The notes under the pieces are model-generated. The model did not search any database, had not been told where the DNA came from, and worked only from the letters and a program-made list of their open reading frames with translations. From the NCBI GenBank assembly GCA_963855995.1, contig OY979730.1:2666501-2730500 (forward strand): DNA of 64,000 bases, in the 5' to 3' direction. The first letter of the stretch is position 1. Every line of letters starts with the position of its first letter. The position numbers and the translations under genes are program-made. This document shows positions 9,301 through 64,000 of this stretch, in pieces. The stretch is from Muricea muricata (taxonomy: Eukaryota; Cnidaria; Anthozoa; Malacalcyonacea; Plexauridae).

Positions 9301-10136
9301 CGCCATTGTTCTCCCGCCATCCTTTCGTCTCTTGCCAATACCGAGGGCCACCGGTTGCATGGTATAAATCCAACAAAAACGTACGCTCCTTCTCGGGTGC
9401 GTGCGTGAAATCGGTCACCGTGTCGTTCTCTGTTAAATTGTGCAAGCATCCTGTCGTGATAATCTCGCCAGCTTTTTGAAGGTACGCGAACTCTGAGATT
9501 CCTAGAAAAGAGTGCAATGCGAGTAAGCGTTCAATCTGAGGCATTGTTCGCTAAAATTCAGAACCTCATGAATATTCATTACTAGGAAGTACAATTCTTG
9601 TATTACGTCATTTGTCACATGGCGACTATTATATATGGCCACGTCGACAACAAAGTGCCTTCTTCGCTCAAAACGTCGAATTTTGTTTACTTTCATGGTT
9701 TTAGGTATCGTTTTAGATAACTTCGTTCTTCTAAATGCTCTCTTCTTCAACAAGATCTTTTGTTCGACAGAAAAGCAAGACCCAAACCGTTTGGTGTATA
9801 CGTAGAACAGCCATGCAGTATTATGTTATTTATGTACGCTTTGGCCGTGGGAGGCAAACTTAACTGCCTTGCCGTTGTTTTAGGTTTTTGGTGAGGAAAT
9901 TGAGGCGCTGGATGGGTATAGCTAAAACCTGCTATGCTTATGATACTAAATATTTCCTACACAACATAAATGTTTACTTGCAATACTGTGTTGATTGAAT
10001 GAATACAATACACAAAGTAACGCGTAAGCGACATAGTATGCGATATTAGCAACTCACCCAAACGATCTCCGATCTCCGGCAAAGCAAAGCACAAAGCCAA
10101 GTTCAAAATGAGACAATACACAAAGCAATTTGCCAT
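6344..10136 (-). CDS. LRR and Cys-rich multi-pass membrane receptor-like protein, 2 exons
   Basis: Exon 1 (10136-10058) encodes a signal peptide (MANCFVYCLILNLALCFA); exon 2 (9501-6344) carries the rest. The donor GTGAGT and the acceptor TTTTCTAG match in phase and give 1078 aa. Layout (approximate residues): signal 1-18; LRR N-cap with GW and HCDWYGVEC, 75-105; about twelve plant-like leucine-rich repeats (GxIP type), 107-485; a cysteine-rich extracellular stretch with CxCKSGYYG and CSQCLDDHY motifs, 500-655; then about ten hydrophobic segments, 660-1055, and a short acidic/polar tail (EYERIPDGPNE). The order implies an extracellular sensor on a polytopic membrane domain, perhaps an adhesion or pattern receptor (inference). 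No kinase, TIR or GPCR signature is visible. The long hydrophobic half is not assigned to a named family. The 3.16-kb intronless second exon is unusual beside intron-rich neighbours. Confidence 0.85.
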
Positions 10137-11797: not shown

Positions 11798-27994
<16,197 letters not shown>

Positions 27995-33230: not shown

Positions 33231-35563
33231 AGTTGTTGCATTTCAGTGTACAAAATATATTCGTGCCAAATTCCTTGCACTGTGTTGTTTTGATTTTTTG
33301 TGGGGTTTTTTTTTGGGGGGGGAGAGGGAGGTGGCAGGAATGAGATAATTATGTAGGAGGGGGAGATAAGTGTTGAGATAGTAATTTAGTTTGTAGCCTA
33401 CATAGTTTTGTAATAATTTTGACCCATATTCAAGGAATTAGAGGTTTAGATGGGAGATACAGTATTAAATAAGTTGGGCAAAGGTGGTGGGTTTGTAGTG
33501 GTAGTTGTAGTTAGGAAGGAGGTTGGAGGGAGGCGTGCAGTGTAATTGGAATTTGGAGTATATATATATATATCAGATTTTGATATAGAGAGATATAGGG
33601 TGAGATGGGACAGCCATATAATTGTGTTTAGCACTCTGTTTTGATGTTTTCATAGATATATCGGATAAATATTTGACAGAAAATATTGTATTTAAAGCAA
33701 AGTGTAAAATTTTAGAGGTTTTGTGATTCAACATGAGGGGTACATAGACTTACTGGTATAGGGGAGGAGCAGTGAGGGTGTAAATTATTCATGGTCAGTT
33801 TGTTGCTTATCATAGCCTTGTAATAGATGAAATTTTGGAGAGTTATGATGAAGTGTTCAGAGTTATTTTTTATGAAAGGAAAGGAGACCTTTCCAGAGGG
33901 ATTGAAGTCTGGATGGGTGGGGGTGGAGGTAGGGGGGGGGTGCTAGATAGTAGTAAAATCTGGTCTGGAGAAGACAGGGGAACATTGGTAAAATTTTAAT
34001 TTTATTGGTTGATATTTTTTTCATGAAATGAGACCTATTCAGGGAAAAGGAGGTTGGAATGAGGGTAGGGGTAGGGGGTAGGTGCTGGGTAAAATCATAG
34101 CATAGTTCAATACTTCTAAGTTTATCAAACTTCATTTTGCAATGTTCAAAGTAACATTTGACTGATTAATTTAAAATATAAATCAATTATAATTAATATT
34201 TCATCATTTACACGTAATTGATCGTATTTCACAAGAGCGAATATAGAAAAATATAGCTAATTAAGTTATTAATGTAAGTAACCAATCAACGGTCGATTTG
34301 AGCGCTGAAGCGGGAACAAGAAATAAGATTTTTGATGGCCACACGTCTAATTCAACCATCTGTGCCTTCAATCATAAAAAAAACGGTAAAACAATCTTAC
34401 AGAAGGCGGAAAAAAACAAGAAAGAAGTGGTATAACAGGTGTTCCCCCATTACAGGTAATAATTTATGAAAGTTGTTCTTTTTTTGTCAAATTTTGCGAT
34501 TTTTACACGCCAAAGCGGCGGTACCGAATTCACGAAGACGGTCACATGTGTTCGCTTTGAAGACTTTTTAAACAAGGTTTATCAACAAGGTTTCGACTTT
34601 TTCCTTTCTTTTTATCGACTACAAGATGTTGGGAATGCTTATTTAGCGTAACCTAGCGAAATTTTGTATAACTTGGGTATTTTTAGCGAATATTTTCTGG
34701 TTTTTCACAACCCAGTACTGGTTGAATGCACGAAGGAGGCCAAATGTATTAATTTTATAATTTTGACAACTGAATATTAAAGCATTCCTGAACAACATTG
34801 GCCTTTTACTTTATTTCCAACGGCTAAAAAGCTTAGGAAATGGTTATTTAGCGTATTTTATCAAAAATTTGTACAATTGAGGTATTTTTAGCGAGTTATT
34901 TTTGGTTTTTGACAGCCCGAAATCGAATACGAAGGTCGCAGATGTATATTATTTATAACTTTGACAACTGAGATTTAAGCATGCTTTATAACAAATATTT
35001 TGGCCTTTTACTTTATTTTCAAGGACTACAAAGCTTAGAAAATGGTTATTTAGCGTACATTAACGAAAATTTATACAATTCATTGAGTAATTCAGTTATT
35101 TTAGTCGGTCAGTTTTTCTGGGTTTTGTTTTTTGACAGACCGAAATTGCACGTTTACATGTAAGCATATTTTAACAAATATTTTGTACTTTTAACTTAGT
35201 GTCTTTTTTAAAGGACTACAAAGTTTAGAAAATGGTTATTTAATGTAATTTGACGAAAATTTCTTGATGCTTTTTTACAATATATTGGCCAATAATGAAT
35301 ATTCTTGCTTCTGACTGCAACCGAAGCGGCAGAACTGGCCGAATGCAAACAGACGGCTAAATGTATTTATAACTTCGCCGACTGACTTTAATGCATAGTT
35401 TAAGAATGACTTTAACAAATATTTTTGCACTTTTACCTCTATTTGAAAAAAAACTACAAAGGCTAGGACTTAGGAAGGGGTTGTTTAGTCAAATTCAACC
35501 AAATTTGTACAATTAAGGTATTTTTAGGGAAGAATTGAAACTAGAGCCTTTGTCTTTGAAGTT
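33231..35563. repeat. 2.33-kb tandem duplication, unit 1
   Basis: Begins CTGCATTTGAAGTTGTTGCA immediately after the transposon edge and is repeated almost base for base from 35564. It contains a T/G-rich tract, a G-rich A-poor block, a short TA repeat (about 33559) and a set of ~200-bp subrepeats in its second half. No gene is recognised. Confidence 0.95.
34560..35560. repeat. Diverged ~200-bp subrepeats inside the unit
   Basis: The block GGTTATTTAGCGTA, followed by TTGTACAATT and GGTATTTTTAGCGA, recurs near 34637, 34843, 35044, 35235 (as TTATTTAATGTA) and 35480 with increasing divergence. Spacing is about 190-245 bp. The same ladder is present in unit 2 (about 36.9-37.87 kb). Confidence 0.75.
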
Positions 35564-35905
35564 CTGCATTTGAAGTTGTTGCATTTCAGTGTACAAAATA
35601 TATTCGTGCCAAATTCCTTGCACTGTGTTGTTTTGATTTTTTGTGGGGTTTTTTTTTGGGGGGAGGAGAGGGAGGTGGCAGGAATGAGATGGTTATGTAG
35701 GAGGGGGAGATAGGTGTTGAGATAATAATTTAGTTTGTAGCCTACATAGTTTTGTAATAATTTTGACCCATATTCAAGGAATTAGAGGTTTAGATGGGAG
35801 ATACAGTATTGAATAAGTTGGGCAAAGGTGGTGGGTTTGTAGTGGCAGTTCTAGTTAGGAAGGAGGTTGGAGGGAGGCGTGCAGTGTAATTGGAATTTGG
35901 AAGGA

Positions 35906-35941
<36 letters not shown>

Positions 35942-37889
35942 TTTTGATATAGAGAGATATAGGGTGAGATGGGACAGCCATATAATTGTGTTTAGCACTC
36001 TGTTTTGATGTTTTCATAGATATATCGAATAAATATTTGACAGAAAATATTGTATTTAAAGCAAAGTGTAAAATTTTAGAGGTTTTGTGATTCAACATGA
36101 GGGGTGCATAGACTTACTGGTATAGGGGAGGAGCAGTGAGGGTGTAAATTATTCATGGTCAGTTGGTTGCTTATCATAGCCTTGTAATAGATGAAATTTT
36201 GGAGAGTTATGATGAAGTGCTCAGAGTTATTTTTTATGAAAGGAAAGGAGACCTTTCCAGAGGGATTGAAGTCTAGATGGGTCGAGGTAGGGGGGGGTGC
36301 TAGATAGTAGTAAAATCTGGTCTGGAGAAGACAGGGGAACATCGGTAAAATTTTAATTTTATTGGTTGATATTTTTTTCATGAAATGAGACCTATTCAGG
36401 GAAAAGGAGGTTGGAATGAGGGTAGGGGTAGGGGTAGGGGGTAGGTGCTGGGTAAAATCATAGCATAGTTCAATACTTCTAGGTTTATCAAACTTCATTT
36501 TGCAATGTTCAAAGTAACATTTGACTGATTAATTTAAAATATAAATCAATTATAATTAATATTTCATCATTTAGACGTAATTGACCGTATTTCACATGAG
36601 CGAATATAGAAAAATATAGCTAATTAAGTTATTAATGTGAGTAACCAATCAACGGTCGATTTGAGCGCTGAAGCGGGAACAAGAAATAAGATTTTTGATG
36701 GCCACACGTCTAATTCAACCATCTGTGCCTTCAATCATAAAAAAAAACGGTAAAACAATCTTACAGAAGGCGGAAAAAAACAAGAAAGAAGTGATATAAC
36801 AGGTGTTCCCCCATTACAGGTAATAATTTATGAAAGTTGTTCTTTTTTTGTCAAATTTTGCGATTTTTACACGCCAAAGCGGCAGTACCGAATTCACGAA
36901 GACGGTCACATGTGTTCGCTTTGAAGACTTTTTAAACAAGGTTTATCAACAAGGTTTCGACTTTTTCCTTTCTTTTTATCGACTACAAGATGTTGGGAAT
37001 GCTTATTTAGCGTAACCTAGCGAAATTTTGTATAACTTGGGTATTTTTAGCGAATATTTTCTGGTTTTTCACAACCCAGTACTGGTTGAATGCACGAAGG
37101 AGGCCAAATGTATTAATTTTATAATTTTGACAACTGAATATTAAAGCATTCCTGAACAACATTGGCCTTTTACTTTATTTCCAACGGCTAAAAAGCTTAG
37201 GAAATGGTTATTTAGCGTATTTTATCAAAAATTTGTACAATTGAGGTATTTTTAGCGAGTTATTTTTGGTTTTTGACAGCCCGAAATCGAATACGAAGGT
37301 CGCAGATGTATATTATTTATAACTTTGACAACTGAGATTTAAGCATGCTTTATAACAAATATTTTGGCCTTTTACTTTATTTTCAAGGACTACAAAGCTT
37401 AGAAAATGGTTATTTAGCGTACATTAACGAAAATTTATACAATTCATTCAGTAATTCAGTTTTTCTGGGTTTTTTCTTTTGACAGACCGAAATTGCACGT
37501 TTACATGTAAGCATATTTTAACAAATATTTTGCACTTTTCAAATTAGTATCTTTTTTAAAGGACTACAAAGTTTAGAAAATGGTTATTTAATGTATTTGA
37601 CGAAAATTTGTAGATGGTTTTTTTACAATATATTGGCCAATAATGAATATTCCGCTTGCTTTTGACTGCAACCGAAGCGGCAGAACTGGCCGAAAGCAAA
37701 CAGACGACCAAATGTGTTTATAACTTTGCCGACTGACTTTAATGCATACTTTAAGAATGACTTTAACAAATATTTTTGTACTTTAACTACAAAGGTTAGG
37801 AAGGGGTTGTTTAGTCAAATTCAACCAAATTTGTACAATTAAGGTATTTTTAGCGAAGAATTGAAACTAGAGCCTTTGTCTTTGAAGTT
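35564..37889. repeat. 2.33-kb tandem duplication, unit 2
   Basis: Second copy of the unit, about 7 bp shorter in period. It differs by an expanded TA run (about 35906-35937) and a few small indels. Identity is visibly very high. Confidence 0.95.
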
Positions 37890-38020
37890 CTGCATTTGAA
37901 GTTGTTGCATTTCAGTGTACAAAATATATTCGTGCCAAATTCCTTGCACAGTGTTGTAATTTTTTTGTGTTTTTTTTTTGGGGGGGGGGGTGAGAAGGAG
38001 GTGGTAGGAATGAGATAAGT
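37890..38020. repeat. 2.33-kb tandem duplication, truncated unit 3
   Basis: Starts with the same CTGCATTTGAAGTTGTTGCA and runs through the poly-T/poly-G tract, then breaks off before the hairpin at 38071. Confidence 0.9.
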
Positions 38021-38070
38021 ATATCACAAACCCCTCTCCAAATAAGTTTAATACCATTATCAATATAAAT

Positions 38071-38251
38071 ATATCACAAACTAAACTTTGTAAATTCAAA
38101 ATATTTTTTATTATATTCACATCCCAACGTTTCGGGGCATGCCCCTTCTTCAAAGATGAATATCATCCTTGAAGAAGGGGCATGCCCCGAAACGTTGGGA
38201 TGTGAATATAATAAAAAATATTTTGAATTTACAAAGTTTAGTTTGTGATAT
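38071..38251. mobile_element. Near-perfect hairpin with GAAGAAGG..CCGAAACG motif
   Basis: Arms 38071-38153 and 38169-38251 are complementary over about 83 bp with a 15-bp loop. Each arm carries TTGAAGAAGGGGCATGCCCC followed by GAAACGTTGGGATGTG. This resembles the hammerhead-ribozyme core (UGANGA, stem II, GAAA) known from Penelope-like retroelements, although the first core C is replaced by T. A TA-rich microsatellite follows to about 38310. Confidence 0.8.
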
Positions 38252-38805
38252 ATATATATATATATATATCATCATATTATATATATATATATCATCAGGA
38301 TGGGTTGTATATATATTGTCAGGATGACCCATATTCAAGAGGTTAGAGATTGGGATGGGAGAGATAAGGTTGGGCAAAGGGAGTGACAGAGAGGCAGTGA
38401 GGTTACATGGACGGAGACCATGATTGTGCTGGCATAGATGTGGGTATATATTCATGGTATGAGCGGATATTCTTTTCTATATTATTTTCAATGTTGTTTG
38501 ACTAAACTTCTCAAGCTTTGGTCATTTAGGGAATCCCCCCCTGGAAATTGTTTTTTATTAAGCTGTATTGTTTTTTATTAAGCTATTATTAAGCTCATAA
38601 TATTCAATCAGTCATATGGCATTATACTATCAAGTGGGCAAAAATAGCCATTCATATTCTGGCAAGTAACCATCCTGCAGGATGCAGTGGGACTAGCCAG
38701 GGCTGTGGGTTTAGGTAAGAAGGGGTAGTGGTGGAAGGGGGGCAAGTGGTTGTTTAAGGGAAATCATTCAGTATGTTGCCTACTACGTTTGTGATAATTG
38801 TGGCC

Positions 38806-45996: not shown

Positions 45997-46653
45997 GCCA
46001 GATGCCCGGTCACCAGTGCCAGATGACCAGATGTCAGGCGACTAGTGCCAGATGTCAGGCGACCAGTGCCAGATGTCAGATGACCAGTTCCAGATGACCA
46101 GATGTCAGATGACCAGTTCCAGATGACCAGATGTCAGATGACCAGTTCCAGATTCCAGACGACCAGTGTCAGCTGTCAGACGACCAGTGCCAGATGTCAG
46201 ACGACCAGTGCCAGATGACCAGATGTCAGATGACCAGTTCCAGATTCCAGACGACCAGTGCCAGCTGTCAGACGACCAGTGCCAGATGACCAGACGACCA
46301 GTGCCAGATGACCAGATACCAGACGACCAGGGCAGATGACCAGATGTCAGACGACCAGTGCCAGATGACCAGACGACCAGTGCCAGATGCCAGATGACCA
46401 GATGTCAGACGACCAGTGCCAGACCGATGCCAGACGACCAGTGCCAGCTGTCAGACGACCAGTGCCAGATGACCAGATGCCAGACGACCAATGCCAGATG
46501 ACCAGATGTAAGACGACCAGTTCCAGATGACCAGATTCCAGACAGCAAGTACCAGATGTCAGACGACCAGGGAAGACGACCACTAGATGCCAGACGTACA
46601 GTACCAGATGACCAAATGCCAGATAAGCAGTGCCAGATGACCAGATGCCTGAC
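45997..46653. repeat. GACCAGTGCCAGATG minisatellite
   Basis: Variable-length units built from GACCAGTGCCAGAT, GACCAGATGTCAGAC and GACCAGTTCCAGAT run for about 655 bp. Units are about 18-30 bp and much more GC-rich than the flanks. Long open frames on the minus strand are by-products of the repeat. Confidence 0.95.
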
Positions 46654-49165
46654 GAATGACAACAAGGTGACACAAATGGTAAAAGGTAATTAGTATAGAA
46701 TCCTGGTGGTCAGAATTAAAGTTGAATAACTAAGCTGAATTTAAGTGGATTTTGTCTGGAAAACGGTTAGATTAAGTTAGTCATTAATGTCTTTCGTCGA
46801 GAGCAACCGGTTAAAGAATCGGATATAAGTCTATGATATTTATTAACTTTCCGACAAAGGGCCTTGAAGGGCTTTCGCTTAAAGCGCTCGAAACGGAGTT
46901 GTATAAAGGTTTTATGTTATGGAGGTTGCATAATATTCGATTGCAAAACTAATATATGCTGCTCATTAGATATTAGTTCAGACAATTGGCAAAATTTAGG
47001 GGTTGTGCTTGAAGCAACTGGAGGAAAGAGAGTTTTTCTCTATTTCCTAAGGTTCTCTTCCAGGCAACCGTGCTCAACCACCAGGATTTGCCTGCTTTAA
47101 CATAGGTTATTATAATTATAGTGCATGATTTACCACAGTATGTACATGTGTTGAAGTCATTCAGTAACATTACTCAGGAATGTCTCGAGTGATATAAGAT
47201 GGAAGTAATTCAGGCTTGGTAAAAATTAAATAAGAAATGTGAGAAATACATGCATAGTTATACTCCTCATCAAATTAGGTCATTAAACACTAGGACGTAA
47301 TGTTAATTAATAACCTTCATACGCATAGCTACTCCTCAAATGCACGACATACGTACATTCTTGCATAAATCATGTTAAAAACAGTCACATAAATATGCAT
47401 TGCTACTCTTAAAATGCACGTATCAAGAACATATAGTGATGATGTAAAATGAAATAACAAAATGAAAATGCACGCGCAGAAACCAAGCCTGGTAGAAAAG
47501 AAAGGACTATTGAAATGATATAGAGGAGTGAATGGCAAACATGGCGGATTTTGATGAATAAAAAAGTAAAACAGCAATGACTGCGCGGCATCCATGAACT
47601 TCTATATATTAACATTTCAATAACGACAGAGGTCGCTTATATTGAATTTGATATATGCTGATATTCTGTCGTAGGTTTTTATATTTGGCATTATAAACCC
47701 TTCAAACAAGTTTAAGCTATCATTTTGATTTTGTGCTCTCCTTGCTTGTATGAATTTGATTATAACTGAAAAAATTGCATTACTAAAATGAACATGACAT
47801 CATAATCTGATTAAAAAATCAACGCCATCACTGGCAAAAAAATAGTAGGATTAAACTTATGAAGGGTTTATAAGGTTTGTTGGAGATAAGGTCATAGACT
47901 GGCTGTTGGTATATAATTTTAGAAAACGTTAACGAAATACCTCTTATATTTCAATCCAGTTGATTCATTTTGTATTCTTTTTGAGAAAATTCGAATCAAA
48001 CTTGACAAATTCAGAAACAACAAAACCCAACAAGAAAGATACCTAACCTTATTTTGTTACAAAAAGAGTCAGAAATGCATGATATCATTTTACTTTGGCA
48101 AGCAATGTCTCATATGATATGACCTCATTAGACAAATCTCCTCAAACCGAAAAATTCCTTGAGCATGACTACGTTACTGACTGACTTACATGTCCATACG
48201 TTAATGACTGATGAACAATTTAAATCATTACTTGCGTTCGGTCTGTATATCTAATGACTTTCAGGATTGCTGAAAGGGTAAAAAAATTAAACGCAAGCGT
48301 ACGTTCAATGAACGTATGGGGTCAACAGGGAAAAAGGGAATTGAAATTAAGATGAACAACAAGGGTCTGAAAGGGTAGAATGGGCATAAAACAAGGTGCA
48401 TGAAAAAAGGTGTACATCAATAGTTTAATAATGAATGGAGGAGCTTCTGATTGAGAAAAATGGAACTACCTGAAAATGAATGTAAAAGCTTCTGAGAAAA
48501 GGTCCTTTGTCGGGAAGTTACAGGTAGTTGTATGTTTCTCAATCAAGTATAGCTTTCTTTTTATTGCGGCTAATTACACCTTTCAGAAGAATCTTGGTGG
48601 TGAGGGTTAAAGCTGAGTAATGTCAACACGACTTAAGCAGTTCAATTTTTGCCACCAAATTTTCATTAGAATTACAAAGAGCATACCATTTCGTTGATGA
48701 ACAATTTTGAAAGAACAAATTACGTTACTCAGCTTTAATCTTAAGCTTATTTTGATTTTTGAACAAAAATGCATGTTAGCAGTGCATGAATTAGGAGTGC
48801 ATGTTATAATGTAAGCGGTACAAATGGTACCTAGGTTAAGTTTCAGGTACGCGAGTGTTGGACACAGAAGGATTGGTGGACGTCTTTTTTGGTAACGTAT
48901 ATGGGCCCGGGTGGGGGCCCCAACCCTTAAGTCCCAATTCGGTCGGGTACTAACATTGCCTTTCAGGTTTCGACAACGACAGTTCATCGTCAGGTGATCA
49001 GAATCGAAAAATACTAAGAGATCAGTTAGGATTTTTATAACTATAAAATACATGACTTAAAAAACTATGTATGGTCGGTTTCTATTTAGTCGAAACTTTC
49101 GTGTTTACGGCGACCGTTAGAACTAAATCGAAACCAGGCTACATTGCACACACCACCAAGATTAG
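46654..49165. other. Non-coding region, nothing assigned
   Basis: AT-rich DNA with scattered short repeats (for example the AATCCTGGTGGT / ACCACCAGGATTT pair at about 46.70 and 47.08 kb). I see no supported exon, RNA gene or complete element. Confidence 0.4.
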
Positions 49166-51837: not shown

Positions 51838-54222
51838 GGGCCGGTTGTATAAAAAAGTAGTTAAAGTTAACTGCAGTTAGCGTTAACTACCCTAGTTAAA
51901 TCCTTAACCGTAGTTAGTTAACTGCACGACTTAACTGCGTTGCACAAAACGCAGTTAGTCGGATAGTTAACTAATCACGTAGTTAACTTGCGTGGGGCTC
52001 GCGTGGTGCAGTTAACATAAATTAAAATGAATTAAGTCTTGTTTATTTAACAGTGGCTAACAAATTCGATTCAAATAATTGCAGAAGAATGCGCCTGATC
52101 TGTGATAAAAGCAATCGTACTTTTTTTCGTACAAATACAAACATTCACCATTATTGAAGAAAGTACTAATTCGTTGGTTTGTAAATTTCAAATGATTTGT
52201 CTGGATCACTGGACGTCACATGTGCTAAATTGTGTAATTTGTTTGTCTGACTCGCTGACTGTATCGGGAGTGCCAAGCAGATTTGTGTAAAGATGTTAAA
52301 ATGTTTATTTTCCAAAGAAATGATCCATCATACACTAAACTTTTTTTTAGATTATTAGTACGCGGTTGCGGTAAACAAAGTGTACCTGAAATGTTTCGGA
52401 GATTATAGCTAGTCGTCTCACCTTTATAAGTGAATAAATTGGTGAGTGATTGAGGCCCCATGTTATTTAACAACTTATACATCATTTTTGCCTTGGCTTT
52501 CTTCCTTTCTACTTTGAGTGTTTTCCAGCCCAACGCTTTCAATGCTACAGAATCATCTGTACATTGCTCATATTCATGATAATTCGAGCGGCTCTATTTT
52601 GGAGTTTTTGAAGTCGTTTAGATTGTGTTTCACTGAACACATCCCATACTTCACAGCAGTAATCGAAATATGGGCGGATAATAGCATTATAAACGGAAAG
52701 AAGTGTTTGCCTATCAACAAAATCCTTTAAACGTCTAAGAGCAGAAATTCCCGATGTTATTTTCCCGCAAATAATATCAGTATTACTTTTCCACGACAAA
52801 TGCTGGTCGACTGTCACTCCGAGAGTTTTGCACTCATGCACTTGTTTAATCCGTTTGTTTTCAATTACCACATTTGGCTGGAAGTTTGAAATATTTTTAA
52901 CCATTTGTTTTGAACCAATTAGCATAAATTCAGTTTTCGCGACATTGAGGCTTAGTTTATTGGCAATTAGCCATTTTCTAAGATTTTCTAAATCAGAATT
53001 TACTGCATCTTCAAGATCAGTTACAAGAGACGCCAGAAGCTGTCAGGTTTGTGTCGTCAGCAAATAACCGTGGTTTTGTTTTTGATAAACATTGGGGCAA
53101 ATCATTGATATACAATAAAAAGAATAATGGTCCTAAAATAGAGCCTTGTGGTACACCACACCTAATTGCTTTCTCTGATGATAAAAATCCGTTTATGTGA
53201 CATTTCTGACTTCGATTTGAGAGATATGAATTAAGTAGACACAAAGCCTGGCCTTTTATACCGTATATCTCCAATTTCCTCAATAAAATTCGATGATCAA
53301 CTGTATCAAATGCTTTTTTTAAGTCGATTTGGACAACTAGGTTAAACATTTTTTTGTCTAAATTTGCATACCAGTCATTAGTGCAGTCCAATAATGCTGT
53401 AGCGGTAGAATGAAATTTTCGAAAACCAAATTGACCATCACTTAAAAGTCTAAATTTGGATAAGTAACAGTATAGTTGATCATAAAGAATTTTTTCCATA
53501 ATTTTGCTGATGGCTGGCAGGACAGAAATTGGTCTGTAATTTCCTGCCACATTACGTTGGCCATTTTTGTATAGCGGTATTACTCTAGCCGTTTTCCATT
53601 CATCAGGGAATAAGGACAGAGCAATGGCCTGATTAAAAATGTGTGTTAGTGAATCTGAAATAGCAGGTGAAGCAATCTTAATAATTTTGCAAGAAATCTT
53701 GTCAACACCTGTTGCTTTGTTGCTTGAAAGACCAGTCAGAAGTTGATTGACATGGTTGACCGTGACAGGCTGGAATGCAGCAAACTCTGATTCAATATTT
53801 TTGACATATGTCTCAAAGTTGAAATTTTGTGTATTGATCTGACTAGCTAAATTTGGGCCAATATTTGAAAAATAATCATTAAAACCCTCTGCAATATCTC
53901 TAGGGTTTGTTAGGCTGTTTTCTCCAAGTTTTAGCTCATTTACAATTGACGGTTTGTTTTGCCTTCCCAATAAACTGTTTATAGTCTTCCAAGCCTGCTT
54001 AGGATTGGACTTATCATCAGCAATCTTCGTGGAATAGTAATCCCTTTTTGCATTTCTTAATTCTATATTTATTCTATTTCTAGTTCTTGTGTAGTTTAAC
54101 CAATCATTTTCGAGGTTTGTAATAATGGATATTTTGGGACTGGTCATACTGGTCATTGTTTATGGTGGGGGTTACACTGTCACCTATTTAATAATTTTAA
54201 CAAGCAGTTATCAAACTCCATG
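51838..54222. mobile_element. Second Harbinger-like left end carrying a LINE
   Basis: Starts GGGCCGGTTGTATAAAAAAG, as at 30679, preceded by CAG. It tracks the 30.7-kb element for about 470 bp, carries the LINE RT block in the minus orientation, then rejoins the 30.7-kb element's sequence for about 70 bp (GGGTTACACTGTCACCTATT to CAAGCAGTTATCAAACTC). No matching right TIR is seen downstream, so the host element is truncated. Confidence 0.75.
52225..54156 (-). pseudogene. LINE reverse transcriptase, 5'-truncated and frameshifted
   Basis: The minus-strand frame from 54156 to about 53020 encodes most of a non-LTR reverse transcriptase: YRPISVLPAISKIMEKIL, FGFRKFHSTATALL, catalytic motif A DLKKAFDTVDHR, GVPQGSILGPLFFLLYINDL and the catalytic FADDT. 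A frameshift near 53020 moves the thumb region (DLENLRKWLIANKLSLN, KTLGVTVDQHLSW, LQKLQNRAARIIMNM) into other frames. A second shift near 52545 precedes the C-terminal LGWKTLKVERKKAKA and YNLRN. No endonuclease domain is present upstream. By motif style it belongs to the Jockey/CR1/L2 group; the exact clade is uncertain. The copy is inactive. Confidence 0.9.
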
Positions 54223-54546
54223 AGAATCCGCACGGCCGAAAAAAGGTGTCAAACGCACAAAATTTGTGCGTTTCTCCGTATGCAATTATGCCTAATTCCA
54301 ACAAATTTAATAGGTAAAGCTGTCATCAATCCGGCTCTATTCACAGTTGGTATGGAAGCAGCTGCATGTGGTTTTCAGTTTAATATTAGGAAATAGGTTA
54401 CTGAAATGAAAGACGATATTGGCACAGCGTTGGTTAAGATAAAAGAGGTATTACTTCAGACAAAATTTGTTCAAAAACCAACAACAGAAACCAAGGCATG
54501 GTTACTAAGCTAAACGCGATCAAAGGTACTGGTAAGTAATTTCAAC

Positions 54547-54672
54547 ATGGCTTCCTTTTCTAACAAGAGTCAAAATATGAATATGGAAGATATTGGATGA
54601 TATGGATTAGATATGGATGAGCTTTCTAATAATGAGGGCTTGAATATTCATGAATCGACGGAAAGTAGCGAG
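54547..54672 (+). pseudogene. Short acidic exon-like frame in the left palindrome arm
   Basis: ATG at 54547 opens MASFSNKSQNMNMEDIG, is stopped by TGA at 54598, and continues in the same frame as YGLDMDELSNNEG and NIHESTESSE up to a GTAAAT donor-like site. The right arm holds the mirror copy (about 62728-62853, minus) with the same stop. It may be a decayed first exon; this is weak evidence. Confidence 0.25.
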
Positions 54673-56135
54673 GTAAATAGAATTGGTAATATTTTTTCTG
54701 AGTACAGACTGTACGACTACGTGGTTTGTTTATGAATTTCACCAGTTTAATATACGTACGGATATTGGATGATATTAATAATATTAAAATGGTGCGCGAA
54801 GTCGCAGAGATACCAGATTTATTTCGAGTGTTGAACATGATATCCTAAGAGTGAGTGCAGCGAACGAGGGCATTTCCTAGCACCATGTATTTTTCTGTTT
54901 ATTATATAAACTACAGTGTTTTCTACTAATATAAAACATCCAGAAGCTATTAGTTGATTGTTTGAAAAGCGATAATTTTCACATGTCATGATCTCACATT
55001 TGAGATTATCAATTTTATCAGTGCTGGAAATCTTTATGAAGCACTGTACTTTAAATAATAAGTATTGTCTGTCTAGTCACGAAGGTTAGTAATTCATTGC
55101 ATGTAGTGATCATGTGATGGCAAACAGGCAGGTAAAAATTCGAGATTGTATTCAACCTACAATTATAGTCCTATATAAAACCCACAAGTAAGTCTCTTTT
55201 GACTTTATTTTGTAATCAGCCGGTATGGTCTGGAAAGTATGGCAACTAGCCACTCAAGAATTTTTGTTGTGTTCAGGTTTGCATACTTGGCTTAATACTG
55301 AATATGGTGAATATGGCCAGTGCTAGGTATCTAACATGCACACTGAAGTGCATTTGACACAGGTTTGCACACTGTACATTTGAAATTTTTGAAACCCGAG
55401 ATCTTGTTAAAAACAGCCATACTTTCCAGTCTAGGTCATCAGTCTACAGTATCTGACTGCCTATCAAAGTGGATTGTTTGTACTGCACAGCCAAGATACA
55501 GTATTGGGCTGCAATTTTGATGTCTTCTAATAAATTTTCTATTAAATGTCTTCTATTAAATTGCCTATATTTTAGTCCCTATATATTTTCTATTAAGTAT
55601 TTTAAATCTCAGCACATAATCTTTCCAGTCTGGACTGCAGGTTCATAAACATGAAAATTTTCAAACAATCAACATTATTCATTTCTTGTGGGTACAAGAC
55701 TGTTGTTTGAAACATTTGAAAATGTGAAAATAATGCAACCGACTGTGGCTAGTTTGAAAATAAGCTAGTTAAGTGGACTATTTTTTATCACTCCCTGTAT
55801 ACTATTCTTCTGCCCATGCCATCTTTTTGCAACAATCAGTAACTGTCTTATTAAGGTTAAGTTAACAGTATCTAGCCATCCACAGAAGTTTAATGTTTAT
55901 GTAATCAGAAATCTTTAGTAATGTTTGGTCACTATATACTTTGGAACTTCAGTATTAGTAGAGAATAGCCAACAATAAGTCTCACTCATGTTGGGACCTA
56001 TATGTTTTTGTCTCCTTGGCTGTGACAATGCCATCATTCTAGCAGCTAAACCTGGGGCATAAAAAACGTTTGAAAAACTTCATGAGATTTAGTCTGTGCA
56101 AAGATTGTGCAGAATGGAAATATATGAGCATGCAC

Positions 56136-56150
56136 CCCCCCCCCCCCCCC
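56136..56150. repeat. Poly-C tract in the left palindrome arm
   Basis: About 15 C residues; the mirror poly-G tract is at about 61254-61266 and is slightly shorter. Confidence 0.9.
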
Positions 56151-57229
56151 AATTATCAGTAAGTAATATTTGATAATTATTTTTAGTCTCTGAGGCTGAG
56201 AAACAAATTCACACAATTGCCTGCATGGTAAATATTGTTTGGCCGGACCAACATTTCAGTCCTGTAAAGTATGCATTCACCAAAGGATCTGGCCTGCACA
56301 GTCATATTTGGACAATTCAGTCATCCATGGAAATGCACAATATAAATTCCAACAAAACGTCTGCAACCTGTTTTAGGAAAAGAAAGGAACTTTAAAAAGA
56401 CACACAATGGATGTGCTGTAAAGCCATAGATTAAGGATAAACAGATGTGCAACTGGATACGTGCCAGTCTCTCATGTTCTATGCTAATATACGACGTCAC
56501 ATCCACGAACCATGAAAGTGTTCATAAAATCGTCAATTAATTGACATTTCTCTTTCTAATTCGTTATAAACTTTGGCTTGTGTACTCGCCAGTATATTGC
56601 GCATACGCACTGCTGCTATGTTATGACCTGGTTTTTGTTGGCAGCATGAGCATCAGTAAAATAAAAAGGGATAACGTTTCCAGTGAATTTTGCGAAAAAA
56701 TGCTGAAAGAATTTTCTTTAAAATTTGTTTTTGTTTCGACGCACATTTCGGTACTGTTGATTTCTTTGTTTTTTAACCGTGTGCTTATGTTCATCTTGCT
56801 AGTCAAAATCAGGTCTAATTAAATGTTCATTTATCTTATACTAAATATACCGTAATTAGTCAAACGAATACGGTTTTCGTAAATAATAGAATTTAATAAA
56901 TAATTTCTTCTTATCTTGTGCTCAGATTTATTTATAAATCAAAATACAATATAATAATCTTATTACGAAAAACAGTGCATGTACCATATATTTTTGCTAA
57001 CCTCATACATGTATTATTCAATTTTCAACATACCTTTTTCTCGCTACTAGCCTAGTATTCACTCTTAAGCGCTTAAGATAATATTCTCCCTCTCCAAAAA
57101 AAACCCCACATTCCCTTACAATTTCTCCAAAATCTGGCCTTGGTTATATGTTAACTCGGTTTTTGCATGCATGCCACTTGATTTCTTATCTTTACTTCAA
57201 AGTTCAAATGGTCATTGTGGCCATGCATG

Positions 57230-59337
57230 TGTCTTTAGTATTGGAAAATGTTATTATAAGGATTGAAATTATTGTTTTCAGAGATTTTATGACTTTGGTT
57301 AAATAGGAACAAATTTTGTCATTGTTTAACCAAGCCTATTATTACACGAATTATTATGTATTTAGTGTTTGAAAATGTTATTATAAGGATTGAAATTATT
57401 ATCGTTTTCAGAGATTTTATGACTGGTTGAATAGGAACAAATTTTGTGATTATTTAACCAAGCCTATTATTACACGAATTATTGTGTCTTTAGTGTTTAA
57501 AAATGTTATAAGTACTGCTGTATTGTTTTCAGAGATTTTATGAGTTTGGTTAAACATGATCAAATTTTGTCATTAATTAACCAAGCCTATTATTACACGA
57601 ATTATTGTACCTTTAGTGTTTGAAAATGTTATTATAAGGATTGAAATTATTGTTTTCAGAGATTTTATGACTTTGGTTAAATAGGTACAAATTTTGTCAT
57701 TGTTTAACCAAGCCCATTATTACACGAATTATTGTGTCTTTAGTGTTGGAAAATGTTATTATAAGAATTGAAGTTACTGTTTTCAGAGATTTTACGACTT
57801 TGGTTAAATAGGAACAAATTTTGCCATTATTTAACCAAGCCTATTATTACACGAATTATTATGTATTTAGTGTTTGAAAATGTTATTATAAGGATTGAAA
57901 TTATTGTTTTCAGAGATTTTATGACTTTGGTTGAATAGGAACAATTTTTGTGATTATTTAACCAAGCCTATTATTGCACGAATTATTGTGTCTTTAGTGT
58001 TGGAAAATGTTATTGTAAGGATTGAAGTTAGTGTTTTCAGAGATTTTATAACTTTGATTAAATATGTACAAATTTTGTCATTGTTTAACCAAGCCCATTA
58101 TTACACGAATTATTGTGTCTTTAGTGTTGGAAAATGTTATTATAAGGATTGAAGTTACTGTTTTCAGAGATTTTATAACTTTGGTTAAATGTGTACAAAT
58201 TTTGTCATTATTTAACCAAGCCCATAATTACACGAATTATTGTGTCTTTAATGTTTAAAAATGTTATTATAAGGATTGAAGTTACTGTTTTCAGAGATTT
58301 TATAACTTTGGTTAAATATGTACAAATTTTGTCATTGTTTAACCAAGCCCATTATTACACGAATTATTGTGTCTTTAGTGTTTAAAAATGTTATTATAAG
58401 GATTGAAGTTACTGTTTTCAGAGATTTTATAACTTTGGTTAAATATGTACAAATTTTGTCATTGTTTAACCAAGCCCATTATTACACGAATTATTGTGTC
58501 TTTAGTGTTGGAAAATGTTATTATAAGGATTGAAGTTACTGTTTTCAGAGATTTTATAACTTTGGTTAAATATGTACAAATTTTGTCATTGTTTAACCAA
58601 GCCCATTATTACACGAATTATTGTGTCTTTAGTGTTTAAAAATGTCATTATAAGGATTGAAGTTACTGTTTTCAGAGATTTTATAACTTTGGTTAAATAT
58701 ATACAAATTTTGTCCTTGTTTAACCAAGCCCATTATTACACGAATTATTGTGTCTTTAGTGTTGGAAAATGTTATTATAAGGATTGAAGTTACTGTTTTC
58801 AGAAATTTTATAACTTTGGTTAAATATGTACAAATTTTGTCATTGTTTAACCAAGCCCATTATTACACGAATTATTGTGTCTTTAGTGTTGGAAAATGTT
58901 ATTATAAGGATTGAAGTTACTGTTTTCAGAGATTTTATAACTTTGGTTAAATATGTACAACTTTGGTCATTGTTTAACCAAGCCCATTATTACACGAATT
59001 ATTGTGTCTTTAGTGTTGGAAAATGTTATTATAAGGATTGAAGTTACTGTTTTCAGAGATTTTATAACCTTGGTTAAATATGTGCAAATTTGGTCATTGT
59101 TTAACCAAGCCCATTATTACACGAATTATTGTGTCTTTAGTGTTGGAAAATGTTATTATAAGGATTGAAGTTGCTTTTTTCAGAGATTTTATAACTTTGG
59201 TTAAACATGATCAAATTTTGTCATTATTTAACCAAGCTTATTATTACACGAATTATTGTCTTTAGTGTTTAAAAATGTTATTATAAGGACTGCTGTATTG
59301 TTTTCAGAGATTTTATGACTTTGATTAAACATGATCA
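57230..59337 (+). repeat. 127-bp tandem repeat array, forward orientation (~16.6 units)
   Basis: The unit contains TTTAACCAAGCCCATTATTA, CACGAATTATTGTGTCTTTA, ATGTTATTATAAGGATTGAA and TTTTCAGAGATTTTATAACT. The period is exactly 127 bp in the best part (58064 to 59207). Units in the centre are almost identical; the outer, left ones are more varied. Within each unit TTGGTTAAA and TTTAACCAA can pair as a short hairpin. Confidence 0.97.
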
Positions 59338-60095
59338 ATAATTCGTGTAATAATAGGCTTGGTTAAATAATGACAAAATTTGATCATGTTTAACCAAACT
59401 CATAAAATCTCTGAAAACAATACAGCAGCCGTTATAATAACATTTTCCAACACTATAGACACAATAATTCGTGCAATAATAGGCTTGGTTAAATAATCAC
59501 AAAAATTGTTCCTATTCAACCAAAGTCATAAAATCTCTGAAAACAATAATTTCAATCCTTATAATAACATTTTCAAACACTAAATACATAATAATTCGTG
59601 TAATAATAGGCTTGGTTAAATAATGGCAAAATTTTTTCCTATTTAACCAAAGTCGTAAAATCTCTGAAAACAATAATTTCAATCCTTCTAATAACATTTT
59701 CTAACACTGAAGATACAATAATTCGTGTAATAATAGGCTTGGTTAAATAATGACAAAATTTATACCTATTTAACCAAAGTCATAAAATCTCTGAAAACAA
59801 TACAGCAGCCCTTATAATAACATTTTTAAACATTAAAAACACAATAATTCGTGCAATAATAGGCTTGGTTAAATAATCACAAAATTTGTTCCTATTCAAC
59901 CAGTCATAAAATCTCTGAAAACGACAATAATTTCAATCCTTAAAATAACATTTTCAAACACTAAATACATAATAATTCGTGTAATAATAGGCTTGGTTAA
60001 ACAATGACAAAATTTGTTCCTATTTAACCAAAGTCATAAAATCTCTGAAAACAATAATTTCAATCCTTATAATAACATTTTCCAATACTAAAGAC
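59338..60095 (-). repeat. 127-bp tandem repeat array, reverse orientation (~6 units)
   Basis: The same repeat in the opposite direction (AATAATTCGTGTAATAATAG, GGCTTGGTTAAATAATGAC). The switch occurs inside a unit at about 59337 with a short shared CAA. These units resemble the outer, varied units of the left array more than its homogenised centre. Confidence 0.95.
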
Positions 60096-62929
60096 ACATG
60101 CATGGCCACAATGACCATTTGAACTTTGAAGTAAAGATAAGAAATCAAGTGGCATGCATGCAAAAACCGAGTTAACATATAACCAAGGCCAGATTTTGGA
60201 GAAATTGTAAGGGAATGTGGGGGTTTTTTTGGGGAGGTGTGCACCTCTCCTATTCCCAGAGGAGGCGCGCACCTCTCCCAAAATTCGGTCTTTTATACAA
60301 CTACATTTATGTAACCATGCATTTTGGAGAGGGAGAATATTATCTTAAGCGCTTAAGAGTGAGTACTAGGCTAGTAGCGAGAAAAAGGTATGTTGAAAAT
60401 TGAATAATATATGTATGAGGTTAGCAAAAATATATGGTACATGCACTGTTTTTCGTAATAAGATTATTATATTGTATTTTGATTTATAAATAAATCTGAA
60501 CACAAGATAAGAAGAAATTATTTATTAAATTCTATTATTAACAAAAACCGTATTCGTTTGACTAATTACGGTATATTTAGTATAAGATAAATGAACATTT
60601 AATTAGACCTGATTTTGACTAGCAAGATGAACATAAGCACACGGTTAAAAAACAAAGAAATCAACGGTACCGAAATGTGCGTCGGAACAAAAACAAATTT
60701 TAAAGAAAATTCTTTCAGCATTTTTTCGCAAAATTCACTGGAAACGTTATCCCTTTTTATTTTACTGATGCTCATGCTGCCAACAAAAACCAGGTCATAT
60801 GCGCAGTATACTGGCGAGTACACAAGCCAAAGTTTATAACGAATTTGAAAGAGAAATGTCAATTAATTGACGATTTTATGAACACTTTCATGGTTCGTGG
60901 ATATGACGTCGTATATTAGCATAGAACATGAGAGACTGGCACGTATCCAGTTGCACATCTGTTTATCCTTAATCCATGGCTTTACAGCACATCCATTGTG
61001 TGTCTTTTTAAAGTTCCTTTCTTTTCCTAAAACAGCTTCCAGACGTTTTGTTGGAATTTATGTTGTGCATTTTCGTGGATGACTGAATTGTCCAAATATG
61101 ACTGTGCAGGCCAGATCCTTTGGTGAATGCATACTTTACAGGACTGAAATGTTGGTCCGGCCAAACAATATTTACCATGCAGGCAATTGTGTGAATTTGT
61201 TTCTCAGCCTCAGAGACTAAAAATAATTATCAAATATTACTTACTGATAATTGGGGGGGGGGGGGTGCATGCTCATATATTTCCATTCTGCACAATCTTT
61301 GCACAGACTAAATCTCATGAAGTTTTTCAAACGTTTTTTATGCCCCAGGTTTAGCTGCTAGAATGATGGCATTGTCACAGCCAAGGAGACAAAAACATAT
61401 AGGTCCCAACATGAGTGAGACTTATTGTTGGCTATTCTCTACTAATACTGAAGTTCCAAAGTATATAGTGACCAAACATTACTAAAGATTTCTGATTACA
61501 TAAACATTAAACTTCTGTGGATGGCTAGATACTGTTAACTTAACCTTAATAAGACAGTTACTGATTGTTGCAAAAAGATGGCATGGGCAGAAGAATAGTA
61601 TACAGGGAGTGATAAAAAATAGTCCACTTAACTAGCTTATTTTCAAACTAGCCACAGTCGGTTGCATTATTTTCACATTTTCAAATGTTTCAAACAACAG
61701 TCTTGTACCCACAAGAAATGAATAATGTTGATTGTTTGAAAATTTTCATGTTTATGAACCTGCAGTCCAGACTGGAAAGATTATGTGCTGAGATTTAAAA
61801 TACTTAATAGAAAATATATAGGGACTAAAATATAGGCAATTTAACAGAAGACATTTAATAGAAAATTTATTAGAAGACATCAAAATTGCAGCCCAATACT
61901 GTATCTTGGCTGTGCAGTACAAACAATCCACTTTGATAGGCAGTCAGATACTGTAGACTGATGACCTAGACTGGAAAGTATGGCTGTTTTTAACAAGATC
62001 TCGGGTTTCAAAAATTTCAAATGTACAGTGTGCAAACCTGTGTCAAATGCACTTCAGTGTGCATGTTAGATACCTAGCACTGGCCATATTCACCATATTC
62101 AGTATTAAGCCAAGTATGCAAACCTGAACACAACAAAAATTCTTGAGTGGCTAGTTGCCATACTTTCCAGACCATACCGGCTGATTACAAAATAAAGTCA
62201 AAAGAGACTTACTTGTGGGTTTTATATAGGACTATAATTGTAGGTTGAATACAATCTCGAATTTTTACCTGCCTGTTTGCCATCACATGATCACTACATG
62301 CAATGAATTACTAACCTTCGTGACTAGACAGACAATACTTATTATTTAAAGTACAGTGCTTCATAAAGATTTCCAGCACTGATAAAATTGATAATCTCAA
62401 ATGTGAGATCATGACATGTGAAAATTATCGCTTTTCAAACAATCAACTAATAGCTTCTGGATGTTTTATATTAGTAGAAAACACTGTAGTTTATATAATA
62501 AACAGAAAAATACATGGTGCTAGGAAATGCCCTCGTTCGCTGCACTCACTCTTAGGATATCATGTTCAACACTCGAAATAAATCTGGTATCTCTGCGACT
62601 TCGCGCACCATTTTAATATTATTAATATCATCCAATATCCGTACGTATATTAAACTGGTGAAATTCATAAACAAACCACGTAGTCGTACAGTCTGTACTC
62701 AGAAAAAATATTACCAATTCTATTTACCTCGCTACTTTCCGTCGATTCATGAATATTCAAGCCCTCATTATTAGAAAGCTCATCCATATCTAATCCATAT
62801 CATCCAATATCTTCCATATTCATATTTTGACTCTTGTTAGAAAAGGAAGCCATGTTGAAATTACTTACCAGTACCTTTGATCGCGTTTAGCTTAGTAACC
62901 ATGCCTTGGTTTCTGTTGTTGGTTTTTGA
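60096..62929. repeat. Right arm of the palindrome
   Basis: Mirror of 54471-57229. Differences I can see include an 18-bp deletion (relative to the left arm's 56602-56627 zone), about 95 bp of extra sequence at about 60233-60335 rich in GGAGAGGTGCGCGCC-like palindromes, a shorter poly-G, and single-base changes (for example near 61844). Confidence 0.95.
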
Positions 62930-63517
62930 TGAATTGATGACATTTATTTAAATGAATTATTTTTTACCTATTTGTAATAGTACCCATATAAAACCACTTC
63001 GTTTAAATATTAATATTTGGAATAATGAAGCTTATAACTGCGTATTAAATATCTGACATTATTATTGTCACATTATATCCAGAAAACGCGCGCCAATTTT
63101 AAACATTGCACGCGAATACCGCATTCGAGGCGCATCAAACAGAGAATGTTCAAGCAAGTATATTCGCACTGTTTGGACAAAACAAAGAGTTGGTACGCGT
63201 ACAATAAATTGCTTTTCGGTTACCAAAAAAATCGTAGCCCTGAATGTTGCAAGGCATTCAAATGCTTTCCAACAGAGGTCAAGAAGGTCAAACTTGCAGA
63301 ATTGCGAGACGGTGACGGTCGCCAAATCTCATATCGGTAATTCTTCGCTGGGTCAAGAAAAAGGTTGTACCTAGCCTATATTAAAACATTATAAACCTTG
63401 AATATATACACGGTAAACTTTTTGTGCACGGGACCTATATAACTATGTGAATAATGATTACATACATATTATGCATTGTATGTATCAATTTAACTGAGTT
63501 AAATTAAGTCTGCGAAA
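62930..63517. other. Right flank of palindrome, nothing assigned
   Basis: Open frames on both strands cover 63065-63340, but neither shows a recognisable domain or splice structure. Confidence 0.35.
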
Positions 63518-63910
63518 AGAACTTAGCTGAGACTCTTGTGTCAGAAAGATGCAGTCATCTTTTGCTGACAGGTTAAGAAGATGTAATCATCTTTGCTTAA
63601 TCAGTTGACGCGAAGTCTTTGTAATGATCATGAAAATACTATATGTTCATATACTTTACCTGTTCGCAATTCATGTCTTGAGTTAACTGATCAAATCTGC
63701 GACCAAATAAGTATAATTATCCGAACATTTTAGTCAGATTGAACTGAACACAGTCGAGCGAATTTCAAAGCAAGCTTTGTGTGTGTTCCATTATAAAGAA
63801 CTTAGCAGAGACTCCTGTGTCAGAAAGATGCAGTCATCTTTTGCTGACAGGTTAAGAAGATGTAGTCATCTTTGCTTAATCAGTTGACGCGAAGTCTTTG
63901 TAATGAAAAT
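63518..63910. repeat. Direct repeat pair of ~113 bp
   Basis: AAGAACTTAGCTGAGACTCT at 63518 and AAGAACTTAGCAGAGACTCC at 63798 begin copies that both run through GTCAGAAAGATGCAGTCATC and TTAATCAGTTGACGCGAAGT. Each copy also has an internal near-repeat (AGATGCAGTCATCTTTTGCT / AGATGTARTCATCTTTGCTT). Spacing is about 280 bp. Confidence 0.9.
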
Positions 63911-64000
63911 TATAATATGTAGTAAGTGAATATAGGCCATATGTTATTGTGGTATGCACGGAAAAAGTATGAATTTTATTGCATTATATATAGCTAGTAT

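Follow-up and report, generated by a model that had tools for sequence, protein, structure and literature searches.

A palindromic foldback element occupies 54445-62929 (+) of the window, the 64,000-nucleotide stretch of the Muricea muricata genome analysed here (C15:2666501-2730500). It is nested in a second mobile element, the carrier, and relatives of both were sought in the whole genome (453 Mb in 74 contigs). The left arm of the palindrome (54445-57227, +) has an outer ~1.8 kb of one arm type, alpha, and an inner part of another, beta, from which ~95 bp are missing. The right arm (60099-62929, -) is of alpha type. Two arrays of a 127-bp repeat lie between the arms and meet head to head at 59337. 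The array in plus orientation (57228-59337, +) ends in a truncated unit of 81 bp, and the array in minus orientation (59338-60098, -) has 6 units; as tandem repeats they cover 57228-59333 (16.6 copies) and 59336-60098 (6.0 copies). The centre (59317-59345, -) is asymmetric, with a TTG/CAA overlap that is common to other copies.

The original prediction, a palindrome of two ~2.8-kb arms joined through opposed 127-bp arrays, is confirmed, with an inverted block of 1677 nt at ~100% identity (54471-56147/61253-62929) and other parts of the arms matching at 97-99%. The true start of the element is at 54445, ~26 bp outside the arm start given there. Its opposite terminal piece, the last ~28 bp, has been displaced past the window, to about 64134-64156, by an inversion of the carrier module T2. 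The longest open frame wholly within the left arm has only 93 aa, and Rfam gave nothing at gathering score. A pattern built from the 127-bp unit had no match in viral_contigs or genome_contigs, as expected for a eukaryotic repeat.

The carrier extends from 54219 to 64000 and on to 64230 outside the window (+, 10,012 bp in all). The sequence outside the arms belongs to one of two modules, T1 (252 bp at the left in the window, including the ~26-bp palindrome end) or T2 (~1.2 kb, with a further tip of 74 bp), and both end in the 16-bp inverted repeat CATGAGAATCCGCACG, found at 54219-54234 (+) in the window. Without the palindrome's own end, T1 covers 54219-54444 (+) by module alignment, and its 54219 boundary is common to copies. 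T2 (62930-64000, +, continuing to about 64156 and followed by the 74-bp carrier tip) is inverted relative to other copies, and the inversion spans 62930 to about 64156. The heptamer GATAAAA at 54438-54444 (+) is one copy of the target-site duplication that the palindrome made on entering the carrier; the second copy, at about 64127-64133, has been inverted with T2. Neither the enclosing carrier nor the inverted right flank was part of the original prediction.

CATGAGAATCCGCACG occurs in 95 exact copies in the genome (reversed control, 0). These form 28 facing pairs within 20 kb, nine of them shorter than 3 kb and two at 1501 and 1505 bp, about the length of T1 and T2 alone. Two carriers, at loci L050 and L051, can be read through without a palindrome and have a single GTTAAAA at the position where, in filled carriers, the palindrome is flanked by GATAAAA on either side. 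Another palindrome copy, L028, lies outside any carrier and has GTAAAAT at both sides. The carriers without a palindrome, together with this non-carrier copy, indicate that the palindrome is a separate, nested element. The 16-bp repeats were considered as the palindrome's own ends and rejected, as no duplication is found there. The nesting would have arisen when one palindrome copy inserted in a carrier of ~1.5 kb, an element that has 16-bp inverted ends and makes no target duplication. The carrier most likely brought the window copy to its site as cargo, and its T2 part would have been inverted later.

The L051 carrier holds another insertion of ~4.7 kb (L051:242-4911), which has inverted ends (TACAGTGGCCC...) and lies between duplicated 6-bp sequences, GAAATA. 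This insertion contains inverted copies of one open frame.

Dispersed copies and target-site duplications

A genome search with 1 kb of the arm matched 41 places, 40 of them at 98-100% identity and one as a short match at 81% (40 scored of 1475 first-look candidates). About 10 kb was read around 18 further copies. The order of arms and head-to-head arrays is the same in them, with arms truncated or missing in several copies (e.g. L013, L018, L020, L023). Copies with different flanks, as sought by the original prediction, are thus present, as expected of a mobile element.

The filled and empty carriers and L028 led to the prediction of a transposon with the ends CAGATATTATTTCAG and GAGGTATTATTTCAG and a 7-bp duplication. 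The terminal pattern occurs at 81 + 76 = 157 places genome-wide (control, 0), of which 100 were listed for the analysis of end pairs. Among these, 24 pairs face each other within 20 kb, and 22 of the 24 combine one CAGATATT with one GAGGTATT end, indicating a fixed polarity. Ten of the pairs are in carriers; the other 14 lack any exact carrier end up to 3 kb away. For 10 of these 14, 44 bp were read at each end: an exact 7-bp target-site duplication is present in 8, and in none of 90 mismatched end pairings. With L028 included, the duplication is exact in 9 of 11 non-carrier copies with both ends read, and the palindrome is therefore itself a transposon, independent of the carrier. As in the foldback-type class, long inverted arms with tandem repeats make up most of the element, and its multiple copies have precise ends and a duplication. 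The palindrome is very probably a non-autonomous foldback DNA transposon, and the giant foldback-type element put forward in the original prediction is supported by the dispersed copies and their duplications.

A transposase encoded elsewhere would recognise the ends of the element and, probably, the sites in the 127-bp units that resemble its terminus. Insertion would then proceed by a 7-bp staggered cut, in keeping with the observed duplication. The hAT and Mutator superfamilies were not retained for the palindrome, because hAT elements duplicate 8 bp of target and Mutator elements 8-10 bp, whereas the duplication has 7 bp in 8 of 10 palindrome copies.

A motif like AAGATGGCGG, which we take to be YY1-like, is found in 6 of 22 flanks of 32 bp (L052-L071 and L028), against 366 of 20000 background pieces (1.8%). 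It was noticed after the fact, and one of the 6 flank matches is a C-rich chance match.

Founding centre, arm lineages and arrays

The centre CACGAATTATTGATCATGTTTAATCAAAG joins two different unit phases without a mirror point, and its TTG can be assigned to either side. With at most 2 differences, 15 of 19 copies have this centre, indicating that the palindrome formed once and moves whole. One arm with its array may have been copied back on itself at the 3-bp microhomology inside the array, the resulting palindrome having transposed whole ever since. A fold-back duplication had been offered as one account of the locus; the founding centre does resemble such a join, with 3-bp microhomology, so that this account is partly right at another level.

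In 11 copies the truncated unit that marks one side of the centre faces the T1/GAGG end; 5 copies (L013, L014, L024, L025, L027) have it on the opposite side. Three copies cannot be assigned: L010 and L017, with T1 at both ends, and L023, where the centre is lost. Among centre-intact copies the ratio is 11:3. A nested ~646-bp insertion is common to L011, L016, L024 and L027. Since these copies represent both centre orientations, the change of orientation is younger than the insertion. The simplest cause, we infer, would be inversion of the centre by crossover between the arms. The ~646-bp insertion, presumably hAT-like, lies between T2 and the arm; it has ends like CAGTGTTGCC and an apparent 8-bp duplication, AAACCAAC, suggested by overlapping alignments. 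L017 (C10:198859-205991, read with L040), which has T1 at both ends, lies ~199 kb from a contig end. The satellite on its two sides is likewise inverted (94.6% over 2.4 kb), and the mirror symmetry therefore extends beyond the element.

The arms of the family fall into two lineages, alpha and beta, which are ~2% apart and distinguished by 37 diagnostic sites. Four arms, one each in L010, L019, L021 and L028, are beta or mostly beta. In the window left arm the first 27 diagnostic sites are alpha and the next 9 beta, with a single switch between arm positions 1774 and 1860 (1644-1860 if site 1774, where one beta arm reads alpha, is left out). Its outer part has the window right arm as nearest relative (distance 0.0006; next, 0.0042). 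Judged by these markers, the outer ~1.8 kb of the window left arm is a conversion tract copied from its own right arm (54471-56330, +), with its inner limit at 56244-56330, or 56114-56330 without the less reliable marker. The alignment of the two arms contains 2718 matches, 18 substitutions and 3 gaps (3, 18 and 95 bp). Because the outer part was overwritten from the right arm, divergence is uneven, with 1 substitution in the outer 1655 bp and 17 in the inner 1050 bp (Fisher p = 1e-6). The inverted repeat would thus recombine with itself, one arm overwriting the other, as mapped in the window copy. One arm of L009 retains beta at no more than its two innermost sites, and scattered beta sites are present in a few other arms.

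The lineages also bear on two differences between the arms noted in the original prediction. The 18-bp indel exists and can be reinterpreted as a marker of the beta lineage, shared by the four beta arms and the window left arm (5 of 31 arms). The ~95-bp insertion in the right arm is instead a deletion in the left arm: the stretch is present in 29 of 31 arms and absent only from the window left arm and an L014 arm that was extracted in part. Maintenance of the palindrome by recombination, also proposed, is partly right at another level, insofar as arms convert each other.

Units of the right array largely follow the order of those in the left (R1 = L1, R2 ~ L2, R4 ~ L5, R5 = L6, R6 ~ L3/L17), with R3 ambiguous (L9 0.087, L3 0.089). 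The left units L7-L15 are mutually alike, which looks like a recent expansion. Array lengths range from 253 to 6456 bp across copies, and the two arrays vary in length independently of each other. One unit holds GACAAAATTTGTTC, 14 bp of the element terminus, a match attained in 1 of 2000 shuffles. Among the expanded units, the most frequent shares 12 bp with the terminus (11 of 2000 shuffles), and carrier T1 shares 11 bp (31 of 2000).

Carrier integration and alternative explanations

The carrier integrates in a different way. The L027 carrier interrupts a 366-bp satellite; adjacent units of the satellite retain the uninterrupted site, CCTCATTT/GGACATTT, and by comparison nothing was duplicated or lost. 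Duplications of at least 2 bp are found in 0 of 11 carrier copies with both ends read, and a chance 1-bp match in three. The flanking bases vary (C/G, T/T, C/G, A/A, T/T, T/G, G/A, A/T, T/G, C/A, C/A). Helitron and Helentron elements insert into AT or TT dinucleotides and Spy between AAA and TTT, in each case without duplication. The former were dropped for the carrier on target sites, since the flanking bases are not constant in the 11 copies, and Spy because none of them has an AAA/TTT site. DIRS and Crypton were also considered for the carrier; no internal copies of the carrier ends are present in the loci scanned.

Some observations weigh against a family of transposons with a single origin and converting arms. 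The duplication matches at only 6 of 7 bases in L064/L065 and is missing in L060/L061, out of the 10 copies tested. No transposase was found, though no domain search aimed at one gave an outcome, and the case is built on assembled sequence. The centre sequence is not found in 4 of 19 copies (L013, L014, L017, L023). On average across 12 copies, the two arms of one copy are no more alike than arms of different copies: the outer arm distance is 0.0109 within and 0.0100 and 0.0093 between copies, and the inner 0.0093 within and 0.0096 and 0.0093 between. Conversion is therefore episodic rather than dominant, and the overall likeness of the arms comes mainly from the youth of the family.

The outer 1.66 kb of the window arms is so nearly identical that one arm could have been read twice in opposite orientation. 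We consider such an artefact extremely improbable, the original prediction having likewise argued against simple read folding: the junction joins two unit phases without a mirror point and is shared by 15 of 19 copies, whose flanks differ, the arms differ by lineage markers also present in other copies, and 7-bp duplications are found at 8 of 10 other sites, all as read in the assembly. It is also very unlikely that the palindrome is no transposon at all but an inverted segmental duplication that recombination between chromosome ends has spread. T1 ends are indeed enriched near contig ends: of 40 scored matches (84 candidates), 20 lie no more than 500 kb from one, where a fraction of 0.035 is expected, the length of C12 being assumed. 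The T1 ends at L018, L020, L047, L048 and L049 have one common outside flank, indicating that a larger block was duplicated, which adds to the carrier count. However, 0 of 14 non-carrier palindromes are within 500 kb of contig ends, and the target-site duplications contradict this explanation for the family. Recombination between chromosome ends probably adds composite copies near those ends. A palindrome immobile by itself and spread only as cargo of the carrier would account for the window copy and the 10 of 24 facing pairs in carriers. It would not account for the other 14, among which exact 7-bp duplications prevail as described above, and as an explanation of the family we regard it as refuted, with only a very slight chance of being right. 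Cargo transport is nevertheless the likeliest account of the arrival of the window copy at its site.

Related elements and neighbouring features

Foldback elements such as FB of Drosophila and TU of sea urchin have long inverted ends with tandem repeats and make duplications of 9 and 8 bp, respectively. They resemble the palindrome in their long, repeat-bearing inverted ends and differ from it in duplication length. The closest known elements are Galileo two-TIR (terminal inverted repeat) copies and Tetris. According to the Galileo papers (PMC4168063, PMC3573991), this Drosophila element of the P superfamily makes 7-bp duplications and has long arms with variable numbers of internal tandem repeats; its two-TIR copies are transposase-less, one being 9021 bp long with arms of 4.2 and 4.7 kb, and some chimeric copies lack matching duplications. 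The palindrome shares with them the 7-bp duplication, the long arms and the internal tandem repeats. Major differences are that a palindrome of arm, array, array and arm with one shared centre is the common form of the family here, that the centre occurs in both orientations, that copies are nested in a carrier and that the host is a cnidarian, with a P-type transposase only hypothesised.

It is possible, though we hold it to be somewhat doubtful, that the palindrome belongs to the P superfamily and is moved by a THAP-domain transposase, as in a Galileo-like element. The grounds for this assignment are the duplication length, within the 7 or 8 bp of the superfamily, and the likeness to Galileo copies in two-TIR structure and arm tandem repeats. 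The 8 exact duplications have no evident GTATTAC-like consensus, a Galileo feature that may not hold across the superfamily.

Tetris, a foldback element of Drosophila virilis, has ~220-bp tandem repeats in its arms that share a stretch with the outer arm, as the 127-bp units do with the terminus, and no coding copy of it is reported (PMC4079207). It differs in its 8-10-bp duplications, its middle domain and its assignment to Mutator (PMC4079207). Terminal repeats are described as extra transposase sites in both the Galileo and the Tetris papers (PMC4168063, PMC3573991, PMC4079207). Non-autonomous Helentron elements of oyster, as described in PMC7492417, carry dispersed short satellite arrays; the array-bearing palindrome does not fit such rolling-circle elements because of its 7-bp duplications and long inverted arms. 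The printed foldback elements that we found are mostly from insects, and no octocoral foldback element was found in a literature search covering few subscription journals.

While the foldback-type class is known, the dynamics of this family are unusually traceable. The family is young; its copies are numerous and nearly identical, and exact ends, empty sites and a common founding junction are available in a genome of 74 contigs. The birth of the palindrome, the inversion of its centre, the conversion of its arms and the growth of its arrays thereby become countable events. One transposon rides inside another that leaves no target duplication. We tentatively suggest, as the less probable view, that the palindrome is a mobile unit maintaining itself by crossover and conversion, and that the carrier could represent an undescribed animal integration chemistry. 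If so, the whole hairpin with the founding junction is what transposes, crossover and conversion between its own arms hold them alike and flip the centre, and the evolution of a transposon follows the rules that govern sex-chromosome palindromes; the carrier, for its part, has 16-bp inverted ends and inserts bluntly and duplication-free at unrelated sites.

Just left of the carrier, reverse-transcriptase open frames at 52225-54159 (-) correspond to a non-LTR-like element in pieces; Pfam RVT_1 was detected in one of two frames tested. An apparent direct duplication of ~2.3 kb, with repeated open frames and rows of tandem repeats, lies at 33826-38297. A GGTAT pentanucleotide array is found at 12113-12582 and a degenerate CCAGATG minisatellite at 46012-46655. 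An uninterrupted frame for a 1068-aa LRR protein (6344-9550, -) has its close relatives in octocorals, with 64% identity to a Dendronephthya gigantea protein and 43% to one from Xenia. Kinase exons at 18459-19902 (-) presumably resemble focal adhesion kinase.

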